Source: an uncultured Spirochaetaceae bacterium
GTDB lineage: Bacteria; Spirochaetota; Spirochaetia; Sphaerochaetales; Sphaerochaetaceae
Assembly: GCA_944390725.1 (NCBI GenBank)
Contig: CALXQU010000002.1
Span: 62,001-126,000, forward strand
Direction of reading: 5' to 3'
DNA: 64,000 nucleotides
The notes beneath the pieces were generated by a model. The model was not told the origin of the DNA, ran no database searches, and saw only the letters and a program-made list of their open reading frames with translations. The position numbers and the translations under genes are program-made. This document shows, in pieces, positions 13,981-22,920 of this stretch (the first letter of the stretch is position 1; each line of letters starts with the position of its first letter).

Positions 13981-16080
13981 CTAGAAAAGCGTCAGCTGCC
14001 CGTCCCCGGGCTCCTTCCCCTGCCGGCCCAGCAGCCTGAGGAACCCGGCCTCATCGACGATTTCCACGCCAAGGCGCTCAGCTTCCGCCCTCTTCGAGCC
14101 TCCTCCTTTGCCCGCAAGGAGATGCGTGGTCTTCGATGTCACGGATGAGACGGTCCTGCCGCCTCTCGCCTCGACCTCGGCAAGCGCCTTCGTACGTGGA
14201 TTGAAGTTCTCGAACGAACCGGTTATGCACCAGACCTGTCCCGCGAATACCTGTGGCAGCTTCTCGCCCTTCGCATCCATATCCGCGCTCATGTGCAGGC
14301 CCGCGTCGCGCAGGGCCTGCACGGTCGCCAGCAGGCCGGGGTCGCTGAATGCCCTGATGACATTCTCTGCCATGACCTCGCCGAATCCGGGCAGGGCCGT
14401 GAAGCGGGATACGCTTCCTGCCTCTGCGGCCTCTATCAGCTTGTCGATGCTGTCGAACCCGCCCTGGATGAGGATGCCCGCGTTCTTCTTGCCGAGTTCC
14501 GCGATGCCGAGCGAGGAGAGGACGGTGGCGAATGGCCTGTCCCGGCTCTCCTCTATCCCCTTCGCCAGCAGCTCCGCTGACTTCTCGCCGAACCCCGGGA
14601 GGCCTGCCGCAGCAGCCGGATCCATCCTGTAGATATCCTCGATGCTGCCCAGCATGCCTGCCTTGTAGAGGATATCGACCGTCTTGGGCCCAAGCGACTC
14701 GATATCCATCTGGTCCGATGAGGCGAAGAAGGCTATCCTGCCCCTGACCTGGTCAGGGCAGCCGTAATTCGGACAGAAATCAAGGGCGCCTATATGCTCG
14801 AGCCTGGTGCCGCAGCATGGGCAGACATCCGGGATCCTGAACGTTGTATTGCCATCCTCGTTCTTGTCGATTACGCGCTCGACTGCCGGTATGACATCGC
14901 CGCGCTTGGATATCGAGACGGTATCGCCGATGGCCAGCTCAAGCTCGTCTATATATTCCTGGTTATGCAGGGTCGCCCGCCTGATCGTGGAGCCACCCAG
15001 CTTCGTCGGAGTGATCTCCGCCACCGGCGTTATGCGCCCCGTGCGTCCCACCTGCACCGTCACGCCCACGAGCTTCGCCTCCGCCTGCGGGGCTTCGAAC
15101 TTATAGGCGATGGCCCAGCGCGGATGATGCTCGGTATATCCCATCCTCTCGCGCACATCCAGCTCGTTGATCTTGAAGACGAGGCCGTCAATCTCATAGC
15201 CCAGGCCCTTCCTCGCCCCTGCCATCCCCGCGATATAACCCTCCAGGCCGGAGAACGCGTATGCCCTGCCTTCGATCCCGGCTTCCCGGAGCTTCCGTGC
15301 CGCCTCCTCTTCCGTATTGCTGAAGAAGGCGAGATCCTCATCGATGGTGAATCCCAGCGCCTTGAGCTTGGCCAGGATATGGAGATGGTCAGGAGGCGTC
15401 TGGTCCCTGTCGGCCCAGAACCCCTCATAGCAGAAGATGCGCAGCGGCACGAGCTTCGCTTCCGACGACTTCTGCCTGCGTACCGTCCCTGCCGCGAGGT
15501 TGCGTGGATTGGCGGCTCTCTTCGCCTCATCCGGCTCCCTGGCATTGAGAGCCTCGAAGTCGGCCTTGGCGATATATACCTCGCCCCTCACAGCTATCGT
15601 GAGAGGCTCCGGAAGCGACAGCGGGACGCTCCTCATGGTCATTATATTGGCGGTGACATCATTGCCGACCTCGCCATTGCCCCTGGTAACTGCCCGCACG
15701 AGGACGCCATCCTCATAGTAGAGCACCATCGAGACGCCATCGATCTTCTCCTCGGCGGCGAACGAGAGCAGCTCGCCGCCCTTCGCTATCGACTTGCCGA
15801 AGAAATCCCTGACCTGGTCCGGCGAATACGCCTTGTCCAGGGAAAGGACGGGAATCGTATGGCGCACCTCCGGGAAATCATTGGTAAGGTCCGAGCCTAC
15901 TCGCTTCGTGGGCGAATCCGGATGGGCAAGCTCCGGATGGGCAGCCTCAAGCTCCATCAGCCTGTCGGTCAGGCGGTCATACTCGCTATCCGATATGAGG
16001 GAGGTCCCTTCCTTATAGTATTTATCCTGATAGAGCCTGAGCTCATCGGTAAGCCTGTCTATCTCTTCCTTCGCGTTCAT
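13981..16080 (-). CDS. ligA: NAD-dependent DNA ligase
   Basis: LigA seals nicks between Okazaki fragments and after repair, using NAD. The 699-residue protein has all domains in order: adenylation domain with the catalytic lysine in EEKIDG (K112), OB fold, four-cysteine zinc finger beginning CPCCGTRLEHIG, helix-hairpin-helix repeats with GLPGFGEKSAELL and ALPGFGEVMAENV, and a C-terminal BRCT domain (QVWCITGSFENFN). Length is normal. The ATG at 16080 gives the standard N-terminus, yet no Shine-Dalgarno precedes it. A perfect TATAAT ends 7 nt upstream, so the mRNA is probably leaderless. It is divergent from the xanthine-dehydrogenase-like operon. Confidence 0.97.
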   Translation of the reverse strand: MNAKEEIDRLTDELRLYQDKYYKEGTSLISDSEYDRLTDRLMELEAAHPELAHPDSPTKRVGSDLTNDFPEVRHTIPVLSLDKAYSPDQVRDFFGKSIAKGGELLSFAAEEKIDGVSMVLYYEDGVLVRAVTRGNGEVGNDVTANIMTMRSVPLSLPEPLTIAVRGEVYIAKADFEALNAREPDEAKRAANPRNLAAGTVRRQKSSEAKLVPLRIFCYEGFWADRDQTPPDHLHILAKLKALGFTIDEDLAFFSNTEEEAARKLREAGIEGRAYAFSGLEGYIAGMAGARKGLGYEIDGLVFKINELDVRERMGYTEHHPRWAIAYKFEAPQAEAKLVGVTVQVGRTGRITPVAEITPTKLGGSTIRRATLHNQEYIDELELAIGDTVSISKRGDVIPAVERVIDKNEDGNTTFRIPDVCPCCGTRLEHIGALDFCPNYGCPDQVRGRIAFFASSDQMDIESLGPKTVDILYKAGMLGSIEDIYRMDPAAAAGLPGFGEKSAELLAKGIEESRDRPFATVLSSLGIAELGKKNAGILIQGGFDSIDKLIEAAEAGSVSRFTALPGFGEVMAENVIRAFSDPGLLATVQALRDAGLHMSADMDAKGEKLPQVFAGQVWCITGSFENFNPRTKALAEVEARGGRTVSSVTSKTTHLLAGKGGGSKRAEAERLGVEIVDEAGFLRLLGRQGKEPGDGQLTLF

Positions 16081-16144: not shown

Positions 16145-18079
16145 ATGGCCGAACGTAAGAACTTCTCACGCTACAAGATGCGCTGCGGCATGCTCATGCG
16201 CGTCGACAGCTGCGGCAGGAAGATCGAGGAAATAGAGCTGCCGAAGCAGGACCAGTACACGCTTCTCCTGACGGCTGATGACATCCCGGGAAGCAATGAC
16301 CTGGCCTTCTTCTCCGATACGAGGCCGATGATGGCCAGCGGGATTACGGCATACCCAGGGCAGGTCGCGTTCGCGCTCTTCGCCCCTGACTACGAGATCG
16401 CAGCCATGCAGATGCGCTCCATCGGGATGAAGCTCTCGGAGGAGGCCGTACCCGTGGAGCACCCCATGCCGGAGCCGCTGGAGTATTCATGGGGAGAGTT
16501 CACGCCTGAAGAGGGGGCTGATGCCGGATACAGGACGGTGGAATCCTCATATGACCTTGCCCATGAGGCCAGGCAGACCAGCATCATGTATACGGTGACC
16601 GCATGGATGGAGAACAGCAGGCTCCATATCGAGACGCCATGCGAATGGGTGGACCTCATCAAGAGCGCCGTATCCACCGCCATAAAGTACCCGAAGGAAA
16701 GCATAGTCGTGCACCAGCTCTCCCACAGGAGCAGGTTCGACGAGTTCCTCATCGACCCGGCCATCGTCGCGGCAATCGCTGCCGTAGCCGTCATACGCAC
16801 GGGAATGCCATGCGAGATAAGGGACAGGGCCATATTCTCCAGGCCTGGCATACATGTGACAAGGAAGACGGTCATCGACAGCGAAGGCAAGCCGCTGTCG
16901 GAAAATGTCGCCATGACCGTCGACATGGGAGCATCCCCTGTCCTTGCCGAGGAATACCAGAGGCAGGCCATGACCGGGCTGATACCGCCCTATCCGCTCA
17001 AGGAATTCCGGGCTTCCGTGGATGTAAGGTCTTCGGGCCTCTATCCGGCGGCCTTCTCCGGATCGCTCGGATACTCGGAGGCGCTATCGGCGACGGAATA
17101 CCATATCTCAAGGCTGGCCGAGGCGACTGAGATGACGCCCTACTCATACCGCAAGGATATCGAGAAGAGGAGATTCACCGACTACATCCCGGGCTTCGAG
17201 CTCGATGACCAGCACAAGACCATGGCCGCGGCAGCGTCGGCATCTACATACGAGAGGAAGTGGTTCGCCAACAACTTCCAGCGCCATAGCTTCGGCCTCC
17301 TGGGCTACATCAAGGGGATAGGCCTGGCTTCGGGAACCGGGATATCCGGATTCTCGACCACCTTCGCGCGCGCGGCGAAGTTCCGCTCGATGATGACCTA
17401 TACGCAGAAGCATAATGTCACCATCAACACCTCCGCGCTCAACCATCCCAATATGCAGAAAATCTGGCGCACGCTGATCTCCGACAGGATAAACCCAGGG
17501 CAGCCGGAGACCATCATGTTCCTCGACCCATCGCAGGATACGCTGGATGCAGGCCCTGACGTGCTCTCGAGGATCATCTCGTCGCTGACGCCGCAGCTGG
17601 AAAGCGCCGCACGCAAGCTGGCATCCCTGAAGGATACGGAGCCACTCCCTGTCTCCGTGGTATTCGACGCCCAGAACACCACGCTCCCATGCGAGTTCCA
17701 GAATGCCGGCTCGGCCACGGTAGTCGCGGAGATAATCATCAGCGAGACCGATTTCCGCCCCATGGTGACAGCGGTATGGGCCGATATCATCCTGCCGCAG
17801 ATGCTGAACTCTGCCTCGCTGCGCAATGCCGTCAAGCGGGCAATCCTCAGCACGGTCTCTGAATGCGGGTTCACTATCCCGATGGATTTCTCGATGCATC
17901 TGGATATCACGACGAACGGGGCGGATACCTCCGTATCATCGCTATCGGCGCTGATGAAGGCACTGACCATGGGGGCTCTTGCGAACGCCCTCTTCCAGGC
18001 CGTAGGCAGCGGAGGCAGCAGCCTGCCCACATCGAGCAGCGTGCTGGAGAAGGTGCTCAGCAGCCATACGGGAAGCTGA
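16145..18079 (+). CDS. Degenerate xanthine-dehydrogenase-like molybdopterin subunit
   Basis: The 644-residue protein aligns by eye with the large molybdopterin subunit of the xanthine dehydrogenase family. PAAFSGSLGYSEALSATEY corresponds to the RGxGxPQ region and DTLDAGPDVLSRII to the DTxxxPxxxGTxxSR block. DFRPMVTAVWADIILPQML and MKALTMGALANALFQAVG match the C-terminal part. The glycine-rich cofactor loops are not recognisable, the QG..T substrate block is lost, and the catalytic glutamate expected near the end is missing. The protein is also shorter than usual (700-770). It therefore probably does not hydroxylate purines. The two following genes encode matching iron-sulfur and FAD subunits, so the complex survives in altered form. 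Confidence 0.7.
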   Translation: MAERKNFSRYKMRCGMLMRVDSCGRKIEEIELPKQDQYTLLLTADDIPGSNDLAFFSDTRPMMASGITAYPGQVAFALFAPDYEIAAMQMRSIGMKLSEEAVPVEHPMPEPLEYSWGEFTPEEGADAGYRTVESSYDLAHEARQTSIMYTVTAWMENSRLHIETPCEWVDLIKSAVSTAIKYPKESIVVHQLSHRSRFDEFLIDPAIVAAIAAVAVIRTGMPCEIRDRAIFSRPGIHVTRKTVIDSEGKPLSENVAMTVDMGASPVLAEEYQRQAMTGLIPPYPLKEFRASVDVRSSGLYPAAFSGSLGYSEALSATEYHISRLAEATEMTPYSYRKDIEKRRFTDYIPGFELDDQHKTMAAAASASTYERKWFANNFQRHSFGLLGYIKGIGLASGTGISGFSTTFARAAKFRSMMTYTQKHNVTINTSALNHPNMQKIWRTLISDRINPGQPETIMFLDPSQDTLDAGPDVLSRIISSLTPQLESAARKLASLKDTEPLPVSVVFDAQNTTLPCEFQNAGSATVVAEIIISETDFRPMVTAVWADIILPQMLNSASLRNAVKRAILSTVSECGFTIPMDFSMHLDITTNGADTSVSSLSALMKALTMGALANALFQAVGSGGSSLPTSSSVLEKVLSSHTGS

Positions 18080-18101
18080 ATTCTTTGACGGAGGTTTGAT
18101 C

Positions 18102-18584
18102 TTGAAGGTCGATTGCACAATAGACGGGAAGACGCTTTCCCTATCGCTCAATTCGGATAAGCCGCTCTCGCTGATCATCAACGAGAACCTGGGAGCAGGC
18201 AGCGGCACGAACCACTGCAACGGCAGCCTGTGCGGGCTCTGCGCCGTGCTCGTGGATGGCAAGCCCACACTCAGCTGCCTCGTGCCGGCATTCGAGCTCA
18301 GGGGCAAGGAGGTGCAGACATTCGACGGCTTCAGGAGGACGAAGGCATTCAAGGACCTGGAGAAGGCATATGACGCGGTCGGGGCCTATCCCTGCTCGGA
18401 CTGCTATGAGGCCAGGTCGATCATCTTCCATTCGCTGATCGCGGATGATGTGACGGACCGCAGCGAGATACTGAAGGAGCTTTCCGTGATAAAGTGCAGC
18501 TGCATGGACCCCGATGACCAGGTAGCGATCGTGAAGCAGGGGATGGCGATAAGGAGCGGCAAGCGTGTTAGACGGATACAGTAG
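18102..18584 (+). CDS. Xanthine-dehydrogenase-family [2Fe-2S] subunit
   Basis: The 160-residue protein has the two-domain plan of the small subunit. A plant-ferredoxin-like cluster site appears as HCNGSLCGLC with a later SC in KPTLSC. A second cluster site appears as CSDC followed by KCSC, replacing the canonical CGFC/CRC pair. All eight cysteines needed for two clusters are thus present, unlike the eroded large subunit. The start is TTG at 18102 because GGAGG at 18090-18094 sits 7 nt before it, whereas the alternative TTG at 18096 is only 1 nt away. The 3' end overlaps the FAD gene by 20 bp. Confidence 0.8.
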   Translation: MKVDCTIDGKTLSLSLNSDKPLSLIINENLGAGSGTNHCNGSLCGLCAVLVDGKPTLSCLVPAFELRGKEVQTFDGFRRTKAFKDLEKAYDAVGAYPCSDCYEARSIIFHSLIADDVTDRSEILKELSVIKCSCMDPDDQVAIVKQGMAIRSGKRVRRIQ

Positions 18585-19503
18585 CCAGGCTTCCATGGAT
18601 AGGAACATATATGAGGGGCTCAGCTCCCCCAACATACATACCCCGCACAACATGGCGGAGTATGCATCGATCATAACGCACTATCCCGAGGCGGAACTCT
18701 GGGCAGGCGGCACGTTCCTGATGTCGCGTCCGGACTCCTACCCTTCCCGCAAGATGGGCAGGGAGATCATCTCGCTTGCCTCGATGGAGGAGCTCCATCG
18801 CTTCCAGAGGAACGACAGGTTCGCCGAATTCGGGGCGATGGTGACTCTCGATGAGGTCATGAGCACAGGCAAGGCAGTCCTGCCGAAGGTGCTCCTCGAC
18901 AACATCAGGTCGATAGGCTCCAGGCTCATAACGAGGAAGGCCACCATCGGCGGAGCCATCGCTACCAGGGAGCTCTCCACCACATTCCCCGGTACGCTTA
19001 TATCCCTTGACGCGACGGTGGAGATAAGGTTCATCAGGAAGAAGAGGCTCCACTCGAGATGGATGCAGCTGACGAGGATGCTGGACAAGAACGGCAAGGT
19101 ATCGCTCCCGCCAGGAGGGATGATCTCCAGGATAAGGATCTCCTTCTCCGACAAGGACTGCCAGTACTTCACATCCATCGGATCCGTGCTCAGCAGGCCC
19201 AGCGAGGCCGTAGCCATCGCCTTCACCGCCTCCATGGACCAGGACGTGCTGGACAATCCCACGATCGCATTCACGTACCCTGACATAGGCATCCTCTATT
19301 CCCGGGATATAGACAACATCTTCTCATCGCTGAGGTTCCCGCTCGATGAAGGCGAGTTCAGGTCGCTCGAGCAGATCGTCTTCACATTCATAGATTCATC
19401 CATCCAGGAGCTGAGCAGGCTGCAGAGGGCTCGCACAAGCGGCATCCTCAGGGCTATAATAGATGACCTGAACGAGAAATCGCTGACATCACCAGCTTCC
19501 TAA
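18565..19503 (+). CDS. Xanthine-dehydrogenase-family FAD-binding subunit
   Basis: The 312-residue protein resembles the medium FAD subunit. LWAGGTFLMSR (about residues 46-56) corresponds to the AGGTDL loop and TRKATIGGAIATREL (about 132-146) to the IRNxATIGGN block, both of which hold FAD in the family. The C-terminal CO_deh_flav_C part is weak and carries an unusual helical tail. The start is GTG at 18565 with AGGAG 8 nt upstream, inside the previous gene. dnaE follows 12 nt after the stop, so the trio probably shares a transcript with the replicative polymerase. Confidence 0.75.
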   Translation: MLDGYSSQASMDRNIYEGLSSPNIHTPHNMAEYASIITHYPEAELWAGGTFLMSRPDSYPSRKMGREIISLASMEELHRFQRNDRFAEFGAMVTLDEVMSTGKAVLPKVLLDNIRSIGSRLITRKATIGGAIATRELSTTFPGTLISLDATVEIRFIRKKRLHSRWMQLTRMLDKNGKVSLPPGGMISRIRISFSDKDCQYFTSIGSVLSRPSEAVAIAFTASMDQDVLDNPTIAFTYPDIGILYSRDIDNIFSSLRFPLDEGEFRSLEQIVFTFIDSSIQELSRLQRARTSGILRAIIDDLNEKSLTSPAS

Positions 19504-19515
19504 GGAGGAAGGCGC

Positions 19516-22500
19516 TTGAGCTTCGTACATCTCCATAACCATACCGATTATTCGCTTCTGGACGGAGCGGCTTCGATTCCCAGATACATCGCCAAGGCGA
19601 AGGAATGCGGGATGACGTCGCTGGCTATCACGGACCATGGCAACATGTTCGGCGCGATAACCTTCTATGAGGCCTGCCGCAAAGCCGGCATCAACCCTAT
19701 CATCGGCACGGAGTTCTACCTTGCCGTAGGCGATAGGAGGGACCGTACGCCGACACCGGAGGGCAAAGGCTACTACCACCTTATACTCCTGGCCATGAAC
19801 GATAACGGCTACCACAACCTGATGGAGCTGAACTCAATCGCATACAAGGAAGGGTTCTACTACAAGCCGAGGATAGACAGGGAGACGCTCAGCCAGTACA
19901 GCAGCGACCTGATCTGCCTCTCGGCCTGCCTGGCGGGAGAGATCCCCAGGATGCTGCTGACCCAGGGCTATGAGAAGGCCAGGGAAAGCGCGCTGTGGTA
20001 CAAGGACCTCTTCGGCGACAGGTACTACCTCGAGCTGCAGGACCACGGGCTTGAGGACCAGAAGAAGACCAATCCGCTCATCGTGAGGCTTTCGCAGGAG
20101 CTGGACATCCCGCTTGTCTGCACCAATGATATCCACTACATCGAGAAGAGCGACTGGAATGCGCATGATACGCTCCTCTGCATAGGCACGGCATCGAAGA
20201 AGAGCGACAGGAACAGGCTCAGGTACAAGGAAGGGGAATTCTACTTCAGGACCCCTGAGGAGATGGAGCAGCTCTTCTCATGGTGCCCAGAGGCCGTGGA
20301 GAATACGGGAAAGGTCGCGGAGCGCTGCCAGCTCGAGATCAAGTTCCCCGGGCCGACATTCCCCAACTGCACGATCCCGGAGGGATTCAGCTCCGAGGCC
20401 GAGTACCTCACCTACCTTGCCAACGAAGGCCTCAAGAAGCGCTATCCCGTCGTCACGGAAGAGCTGCAGAAGAGGCTTGACTATGAGCTTGGCATCATCA
20501 TCCAGATGGGCTTCCCCGCCTACTTCCTCATCGTGCGCGACTATATCCACTGGGCAAAGACCCATGACATCCCTGTCGGGCCGGGACGCGGAAGCGGAGC
20601 CGGATCCATTGTCGCCTATTCGATAACCATCACAGATGTCGACCCGATAAAGTACAACCTCCTCTTCGAGAGGTTCCTCAATCCGGAAAGGGTATCGCTC
20701 CCTGATTTCGACGTAGACTTCTGCTTCGAAGGACGCAGCAAGGTCATAGACTACGTCACGGAGCATTACGGCAAGGACAAGGTCGGCCAGATCATCACCT
20801 TCGGAACGCTGAAGCCCAAGCAGGTCGTCAAGGACGTCGCCAGGGTCCTCGACATCCCATATGAGGAGGCCAACAAGATCTGCTCATACATACCAGATGA
20901 ACTGAAGATGACGCTTGCCAAGGCCTTCGACGCCGAACCGAAGCTGAAGGAGATAAGGGCCCGCGGAGGCATCTATGAGGAGCTTTTCGACACTGCAGAG
21001 CGCCTAGAGGGCCTCAACAGGCATTCATCGCTCCATGCTGCGGGCGTCGTCATCGGCAAGGAGGTGCTATCCCATTACGTACCGCTCTTCGTCGACCCGA
21101 AGACGGGATCCGTCGCTACGCAGTATCCGATGACGCAGATCGAGAACTGCGGGCTTGTGAAGATGGACTTCCTCGGCCTCAAGACGCTCACCCTCATCAA
21201 GCACACTGTCGAGCTGATCCACAAGCACACCCCTGATTTCGACATAAACAGGATCGATGAGCATGACAGGAAGACATTCGACATGCTGGACAGGGGCGAC
21301 TCCAAATGCGTCTTCCAGTTCGAATCGGACGGCATGGCCAACATCCTCAAGCGCGAGAAGCCATCGACGATTGAGGAGCTGGTCGCCCTCAACGCCCTCT
21401 ACAGGCCGGGCCCGATGCAGTTCATCGACCAGTACATCGACTCCAAGCTCGGCAAGAGGCCCATCACCTATCCTGACCCCTGCCTCGAGGATGTCCTCAA
21501 GGAGACATACGGCGTCATCGTCTACCAGGAGCAGGTCATGAAGGTCGCCCAGGTAATCGCGGGATACACGCTCGGAGGCGCTGATATCCTCAGGAGGATC
21601 ATGGGCAAGAAGAAGGTCTATGAGCTGGCTGAGCAGCTGGTCAAGTTCAAGGCCGGCGCCGTGAGGAACGGCTTTACCGAGGAGCATGCAGAGGAGATCT
21701 TCCATATCCTCGAGCCATTCGCAGGTTACGGCTTCAATAAATCCCATGCAGTCGCCTATTCGGTCATCGCCTACCAGACAGCCTACCTGAAGGCGAACTA
21801 CCCTGCCGAGTTCCTGGCTGCCAACCTCACGAACGAGATGGGCAATCCCGCGAAGTTCACCGAGTACCTGAACCTGGCGCCCAAGTACGGGCTGAGGATA
21901 CTGCCGCCATCCATCAACAGGTCCGACAAGCATTTCAACGTATCCGACGGGGACATCGTATACGGGCTTGCCGGCATCAAGGGCGTCGGCGAGGGCGTCG
22001 TGGAGATCATCATCAGGGAAAGGGAGCAGCACGGGCCATACGCCTCGTTCATCGACTTCATCTCCAGGCAGGGAGAGGGCGTGGTGAACTCGAAGCTGCT
22101 GGAATCGCTGATCAAGGCAGGCGCCTTCGACGAGCTCGGCACGGACAGGGCCGTATTGCTGGCCAACCTGGATGATGCCATAAGATACGACAAGAGCATG
22201 AAGAGCGAGACGGCATTCGGGCAGCTCTCGCTCTTCGGCGATGAAGAGGAATCGACATTCCATTTCGAGATGCGCCCCGTCGACCCGATGCCGATATCGG
22301 AGAAGCTCCAGCTCGAGAAGGAGTATCTCGGCTTCTACATCTCGGGCCATCCGCTTGACAGATACAGCGAGCAGATCGAGGCATGCGTGAGGGCGGATCT
22401 CAGCAATCCGTCATCGATTATCCTCGGCAAGCCGCAATCGCTGATCGCGCTGGTCGCCGCCAAGCGCCAGATCATGACCAAGGACAAGAAGAAGATGGGC

Positions 22501-22920
22501 TTCTTCACCCTGCAGACAAAGGAAGGCGATATCGATGCGGTAGCCTTCCCCAAGCTGTATGAGCAGATCATGGAGGATGTGGTGGAGGATGGCATCTACG
22601 GCTTCGTCGGCACATTCGACCAGAAGGACAGGGAATCCAAGCTCTCGTTCCTCATCGACAAGGTCGTCAGGCCGGAGGACCTGCAGCCCGATGCCGTGCA
22701 GATGGTGCACATACAGCTGAGGGACTTCAGCCAGGAACCCATCCAGTCAGTCGCCCGGAGGCTGAAGGAGAGCGAAGGCTATATACCGGTGGGGCTCTCC
22801 CTTGCGAAGGTACCCGGCTATGAGCTGCAGACCGGTGCCGGCTACTTCGTAAGCTATTCCCCGGAGCTGCTCAACGACCTCAGGGGCATGGAGATAGTGG
22901 ACAGGGTCTGGATATCCTGA
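19516..22920 (+). CDS. dnaE: DNA polymerase III subunit alpha
   Basis: This is the replicative polymerase catalytic subunit, 1134 residues, close to the usual 1150-1170. The N-terminal PHP domain starts FVHLHNHTDYSLLDGAAS. The polymerase core has GPGRGSGAGSIVAY and the catalytic aspartates in PDFDVDF. Then come RHSSLHAAGVVI, tandem helix-hairpin-helix motifs, and a C-terminal OB-fold (TKDKKKMGFFTLQT). Translation begins at TTG 19516, preceded by AAGGAGGAA at a good distance. A rare start codon may keep its level low relative to the upstream genes. Confidence 0.97.
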   Translation: MSFVHLHNHTDYSLLDGAASIPRYIAKAKECGMTSLAITDHGNMFGAITFYEACRKAGINPIIGTEFYLAVGDRRDRTPTPEGKGYYHLILLAMNDNGYHNLMELNSIAYKEGFYYKPRIDRETLSQYSSDLICLSACLAGEIPRMLLTQGYEKARESALWYKDLFGDRYYLELQDHGLEDQKKTNPLIVRLSQELDIPLVCTNDIHYIEKSDWNAHDTLLCIGTASKKSDRNRLRYKEGEFYFRTPEEMEQLFSWCPEAVENTGKVAERCQLEIKFPGPTFPNCTIPEGFSSEAEYLTYLANEGLKKRYPVVTEELQKRLDYELGIIIQMGFPAYFLIVRDYIHWAKTHDIPVGPGRGSGAGSIVAYSITITDVDPIKYNLLFERFLNPERVSLPDFDVDFCFEGRSKVIDYVTEHYGKDKVGQIITFGTLKPKQVVKDVARVLDIPYEEANKICSYIPDELKMTLAKAFDAEPKLKEIRARGGIYEELFDTAERLEGLNRHSSLHAAGVVIGKEVLSHYVPLFVDPKTGSVATQYPMTQIENCGLVKMDFLGLKTLTLIKHTVELIHKHTPDFDINRIDEHDRKTFDMLDRGDSKCVFQFESDGMANILKREKPSTIEELVALNALYRPGPMQFIDQYIDSKLGKRPITYPDPCLEDVLKETYGVIVYQEQVMKVAQVIAGYTLGGADILRRIMGKKKVYELAEQLVKFKAGAVRNGFTEEHAEEIFHILEPFAGYGFNKSHAVAYSVIAYQTAYLKANYPAEFLAANLTNEMGNPAKFTEYLNLAPKYGLRILPPSINRSDKHFNVSDGDIVYGLAGIKGVGEGVVEIIIREREQHGPYASFIDFISRQGEGVVNSKLLESLIKAGAFDELGTDRAVLLANLDDAIRYDKSMKSETAFGQLSLFGDEEESTFHFEMRPVDPMPISEKLQLEKEYLGFYISGHPLDRYSEQIEACVRADLSNPSSIILGKPQSLIALVAAKRQIMTKDKKKMGFFTLQTKEGDIDAVAFPKLYEQIMEDVVEDGIYGFVGTFDQKDRESKLSFLIDKVVRPEDLQPDAVQMVHIQLRDFSQEPIQSVARRLKESEGYIPVGLSLAKVPGYELQTGAGYFVSYSPELLNDLRGMEIVDRVWIS

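Follow-up and report, generated by a model that had tools for sequence, protein, structure and literature searches.

A xanthine-dehydrogenase-like gene trio with eroded molybdenum cofactor loops in the Spirochaetia and its possible redox or scaffold role

What can a three-subunit complex do when it is built like a xanthine dehydrogenase (XDH) and the loops that should hold its molybdenum cofactor (MoCo) are eroded? The question is raised by a locus at positions 16145-19503 of the window, the 64,000-nucleotide stretch of DNA from an uncultured Spirochaetaceae bacterium that was analysed here. The genes of a large (L), a small (S) and a medium (M) subunit lie there co-directionally in the order L-S-M (Table 1), the reading frames of S and M sharing an overlap of 20 nt and dnaE starting 12 nt past the end of M. 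The initial annotation had described an XDH-like trio upstream of dnaE, and both its coordinates and its description are correct for the window. Regarding the start of S, the listed reading frame begins at TTG 18096 (18096-18584, 162 aa); however, TTG 18102, located 7 nt downstream of a GGAGG, is probably the actual start, considering the Shine-Dalgarno spacing and the homologues.

Table 1. Genes of the trio locus in the window, with the evidence for each; the start given for S is the probable one.
Feature	Position	Strand	Evidence
Large subunit (L), 644 aa	16145..18079	+	MoCoBD_1 match, AF2 model, structure comparison, motif table
Small [2Fe-2S] subunit (S)	18102..18584	+	NCBIfam XdhC-like, alignment, Cys table, start context
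Medium subunit (M), FAD_binding_5, 312 aa	18565..19503	+	Pfam, AF2 model, FAD-chain structure match
dnaE, conserved downstream neighbour (dnaE-YggT-recG)	19516..22920	+	ORF list, class-wide gene order
ligA, divergent neighbour in the window's family	13981..16080	-	ORF list, gene order

Pfam and NCBIfam assign the trio to the xanthine oxidase (XO) family with low scores: L matches MoCoBD_1 with 37 bits (cut-off 27), M matches FAD_binding_5 with 74 bits, and the best NCBIfam match of S is to the XdhC-type Fe-S subunits, with 58.9 bits. The AF2 model of L (pLDDT 86) aligns with rat XOR over 629 residues (Z 33.9, rmsd 3.8), its predicted fold being that of a complete XO large subunit, and a profile comparison relates L to D. 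gigas AOR with an E value of 1e-64. The model of M (pLDDT 87.1) likewise matches the FAD chain of bovine XO, with a Z of 26.5. By descent and fold, the window trio belongs to the XO superfamily. The alignment and the Cys table place all eight cluster cysteines, that is, two [2Fe-2S] clusters, in the window's S, and M retains the two FAD loops (WAGGT and ATIGG), in agreement with the intact cluster cysteines and FAD glycine loop reported in the initial annotation. In L, HRSRFDEF stands where the MoCo Gly loop has GGAFGGKE, FSGSLG takes the place of AFRGFG and HPNM that of MGQG, with the Arg and the Gln absent, and SLSAL replaces GMGEL, with the catalytic Glu (GxGE) absent. Judged by these motifs, the trio lacks defining functional features of a molybdenum hydroxylase and would not be one.

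The same motifs were compared in 99 large subunits and six intact sister XDHs. None of the 99 has at least six of the seven positions of the Gly loop GGxFGGK; the best has four of seven, and 81 are left with only one or none. The Arg of AFRGFG is retained in a single L and the Gln of MGQG in two, and the catalytic Glu is gone from 71 and present in 28. The sister XDHs, in contrast, carry six or seven of the seven Gly-loop positions, and the Gly loop, Arg, Gln and catalytic Glu are present in all six. The loss of the cofactor loops stated at first for the window, where every loop is eroded, can thus be extended to the Gly loop of all 99 proteins; the loss of the catalytic Glu, stated as well, is true of the window and does not apply in general, because its persistence in 28 orthologs means that this loss is not a defining feature of the group. 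A Gln similar to Q767, beside W168, is retained in 58 of the 99. The basal trio members are L172, L174 and L129; fragments of the MoCo loops (MGQG; FGGK) are left in L172 and L174, which look like transitional forms, as the fragments are those that a stepwise loss would leave.

The trio large subunits group in one clade (SH-aLRT 100) of a 60-protein tree, adjoined by intact XDHs, one of them from the window's own genome. This clade possesses conserved residues of its own: W168 in 91 of 100 trio L subunits, where all six XDHs have Cys; E270, also in 91, where the XDHs have Val; K/R496 in 93, where they have Trp; and LP501-502, absent from the sister group. In the alignment, W168 falls immediately after the residue equivalent to bovine Gln767, and E270 precedes the Arg880 position by about one helical turn; both may fill or line the former active-site cavity. 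No Cys or His is conserved in at least 85% of the L subunits, so there is no new universal thiolate or His metal site, and a new metal site in L was rejected on this basis. As seen by the Nei-Gojobori method, the dN/dS values of all three genes fall at about 0.01-0.2 among the computable pairs, which include pairs from genomes without MoCo genes, and L, S and M are under purifying selection. The molybdenum site is gone, yet the trio is actively maintained; it must therefore do something other than the textbook XDH reaction.

Of 60 near genomes, 53 have a relative of L (E<=0.001), with identities down to 22-28% across the class, and the window trio and its relatives are far above chance. The raw count of 181 of 219 genomes mixes the trio clade with intact XDHs, and trio counts therefore include only genomes whose trio was actually read. 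The order L-S-M is constant across all loci read. In the window's family the locus is arranged as pfkA / aminotransferase / ligA (divergent) - L-S-M - dnaE - YggT - recG, and in most other families as NusG-like - CapD - DegT - L-S-M - dnaE - YggT - recG; the loci of family f24 follow the latter order with dnaE missing (NusG-like - CapD - DegT - L-S-M - YggT - recG). DegT, CapD and NusG-like were named via Pfam, and dnaE, YggT, recG, ligA and pfkA were recognised by eye. Because the locus is strikingly conserved across the class, the trio is most likely ancestral to it and vertically inherited, and the conservation in spirochaetes that the initial annotation had supposed is seen in orthologous trios across the Spirochaetia, in the dnaE-YggT-recG neighbourhood; most spirochaetes possess such a trio. 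No trio was found in family f19, presumably the Borreliaceae, with genomes of 0.9-1.8 Mb. A survey of the phylum Spirochaetota gave matches in other classes as well; the six of these that were read keep all MoCo loops and are thus intact XDHs, so that an extension of the trio clade beyond the Spirochaetia was rejected for them. Wherever DegT and L occur together (26 loci), they lie on the same strand and are translationally coupled; the gap ranges from -72 to +26 nt, apart from one locus with -220 nt and an uncertain start. This coupling suggests a link of the trio to DegT/CapD amino-sugar synthesis, the window's family having neither DegT nor CapD at the locus. In addition, much of the window's family has a gene for a ModE-like stand-alone HTH protein (TIGR00637, below the cut-off) close to the trio, flanked by the aminotransferase and pfkA genes (L120:12864-13253 and 13 further loci); none was seen in the window itself.

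The complete L-S-M trio is also present in Treponema pallidum, at about 87.0-90.6 kb of contig C1 of genome G104 (1,139,633 bp), which encodes Tp47 (1O75, 415/415 residues) and TroA (1TOA). Its S subunit (L135:11270-11737) has HNSY for CCCC at the plant-type ligands and keeps the second cluster, Pfam detecting Fer2_2 only. In XO enzymes, the plant-type cluster is located between the helical-type cluster and FAD; in T. pallidum, the classical chain would therefore be expected to be interrupted. These genes, TPASS_0079-0081, are orthologous to the window trio and differ from it in the loss of the plant-type ligands. TPASS_0079 and TPASS_0081 are listed as xanthine-dehydrogenase-like in an annotation paper (PMC4403809), beyond which nothing on TP0079-TP0081 was found in the literature searched. 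The initial annotation had mentioned a similar T. pallidum gene annotated as quinoline oxidoreductase: in substance this is right, as the full trio and the XDH-like listing show, and the name itself was not found in the papers searched. Very probably, the T. pallidum trio cannot perform the XDH reaction.

With high confidence, the trio can be taken as a MoCo-less L-S-M complex that derives from an ordinary XDH, with a remodelled L that would not hydroxylate. The predicted fold, the loss of the MoCo loops, the monophyly, the selection and the persistence without MoCo synthesis genes have been demonstrated at the level of sequences and models. The best explanation, to which as a whole we give about an even chance, is a class-wide, vertically inherited "pseudo-molybdenum hydroxylase", in which L-S-M would have a redox or scaffold role. 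It appears reasonably likely that an entire molybdenum hydroxylase was converted, one time, into an ancient, spirochaete-specific and molybdenum-independent machine, either redox or regulatory, kept even in the reduced T. pallidum genome and with a new function tied to the former cavity (W168, E270). In the proposed course of events, the L of an ancestral ordinary XDH would have lost MoCo binding, keeping the fold and acquiring new conserved residues. The complex would then act, in the window's lineage and most others, as a MoCo-free FAD/[2Fe-2S] electron-transfer module, where electrons may enter or leave at the FAD, with NAD(P)H as their probable source, pass the two clusters and reach a partner or a small molecule held by the remodelled L. 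This redox mechanism is put forward tentatively, its chances being a little short of even; a new redox role had already been proposed in the initial annotation and may apply to the complex.

Most S subunits retain both clusters (eight Cys), and both FAD loops are found in 85 of 100 M subunits. However, S is essentially without both clusters in L058, L117 and L119 and without the helical-type cluster in L068 and L060, and in L163-L167 the first FAD loop of M is lost while S still has eight Cys. Hence, an electron-transfer role is plausible and not universal, as a complete redox chain is not needed everywhere; a redox role is likely in most lineages, with no universal requirement. The retention of the electron-transfer parts, as first described, is accordingly correct for the window and most lineages and not everywhere. 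In many S subunits of f24, the last C-x-C pair of the helical-type cluster is now an adjacent CC (L123, L143, L146, L148-L158).

The main rival is a cofactor-independent scaffold or regulator, where the complex itself would be functional, for instance by arranging or modulating a partner, with FAD and Fe-S as relics lost piecemeal. The loss of different cofactors in different lineages (L058/L117/L119, T. pallidum, L068/L060, L163-L167) with all three genes kept speaks for it, as do the lack of any Cys or His conserved at 85% or more in L and the coupling of DegT and L in 26 of 26 loci, which suggests a linked process. Nevertheless, eight Cys and both FAD loops would hardly persist in most lineages if they were dispensable, and this explanation is considered rather unlikely.

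Of 219 Spirochaetia genomes surveyed for MoCo synthesis, 63 have MoaC, 62 MoaA (Mob_synth_C) and 57 MoeA, and all three are absent from 64 of the 81 genomes with a read trio and from 23 of the 24 genomes of f24; the initial annotation had held that trios in genomes without molybdopterin synthesis would support a new role, and such trios are common. No MoaA, MoaC, MoeA, MoaE or MoCF protein was found in T. pallidum G104. In the same family, genome G058, without MoaA, MoaC, MoeA and MoaE, encodes an additional, second large subunit of XDH type (L191:1534-3816), in which the Gly loop and the Glu are nearly intact. Neither MoaC, MoaA nor MoeA was found in the window's genome or 16 sampled congeners, nor MoaE in ten genomes tested among them. 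XDHs of the selenium-dependent type are intact in the window's genus (Se_dep_XDH 1215 bits, Se_sel_red_Mo 1176 bits) and are accompanied by YgfK, SelD and XdhC. In the window's genome, G000, clusters of this Se-dependent XDH/YgfK type lie at C2:18137-19870 (L082) and C9:70502-77455 (L083, L084), and these XDHs, as orphan molybdoenzymes, may rely on MoCo salvage or on another route. In the congener G018, genes for a ModA-like protein, the 158-aa MogA and a short, 335-aa MoeA-like protein stand side by side (L197:622-2930) without MoaA, MoaC and MoaE, so that late and not early MoCo steps are present. Considering these XDHs and the G018 cluster, another MoCo source may exist in the window's genus, so that missing MoCo carries most weight as an argument in Treponema and similar genomes.

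The trio might also be an unusual hydroxylase with divergent binding of a salvaged MoCo or another pterin, a reading consistent with the intact Se-dependent XDHs of a genus lacking MoaA, MoaC, MoaE and MoeA, with the Q767-like Gln (58/99) and the Glu (28/99), and with the loop pieces of the basal L172 and L174. It is very unlikely, however, given the Gly loop gone in 99/99, the Arg kept in one and the MGQG Gln in two, and the absence of MoaA, MoaC, MoaE, MoeA and a MoCF protein from T. pallidum. Slimmer still are the chances that the trio is the reductase partner of the neighbouring DegT in a 3-dehydrase (AscC/AscD, E1/E3-like) system. E1/E3 systems use FAD and [2Fe-2S], and DegT is directly upstream and coupled in 26 loci, but the window's family has no DegT at the trio locus. 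Moreover, the DegT proteins at all 26 loci have the PLP lysine (SFYATK or SFYANK), with no His replacement and no shared Cys set, and thus look like ordinary sugar aminotransferases; an E1/E3-type sugar dehydrase partner was rejected because of the retained lysine. A decaying pseudogene operon, which the stepwise loss of active-site motifs might evoke, was rejected as hardly tenable, largely refuted by the dN/dS of about 0.01-0.2, the intact frames, the class-wide synteny and the retention of the trio in the 1.14-Mb genome of T. pallidum.

For T. pallidum, the MoCo-less reading provides an initial rational account of three conserved genes, two of them listed as xanthine dehydrogenase, and warns that purine or quinoline metabolism should not be inferred from such annotations. 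No paper on a conserved class-wide MoCo-less XO complex or an XDH pseudoenzyme was found in the literature searched. A 2018 survey of "orphan molybdoproteins" described XO-family genes in genomes without MoCo synthesis and proposed molybdenum-independent forms, leaving this independence open and reporting no distinguishing sequence feature (PMC6147048). Compared to those orphans, the trio is a group with a clear sequence feature, the erased MoCo loops, which makes the question of PMC6147048 testable on one purified complex. The trio shares with the XO-family molybdenum hydroxylases (XDH, AOR, CODH, quinoline 2-oxidoreductase) the same three subunits, the folds of L and M, two [2Fe-2S] clusters and the FAD loops, and with the intact sister XDH of the same genome the L-S-M gene order; it differs from these hydroxylases in that the MoCo loops are lost in 99/99 and the Glu in 71/99 and in its occurrence in genomes without MoCo synthesis. 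As far as the structure entry describes it, the H. pseudoflava CO dehydrogenase lacking the Mo-pyranopterin moiety (1FFU) is an XO-family complex likewise assembled without Mo-pterin; however, it represents the cofactor-free state of a normal enzyme, whereas in the trio the binding site itself is gone.
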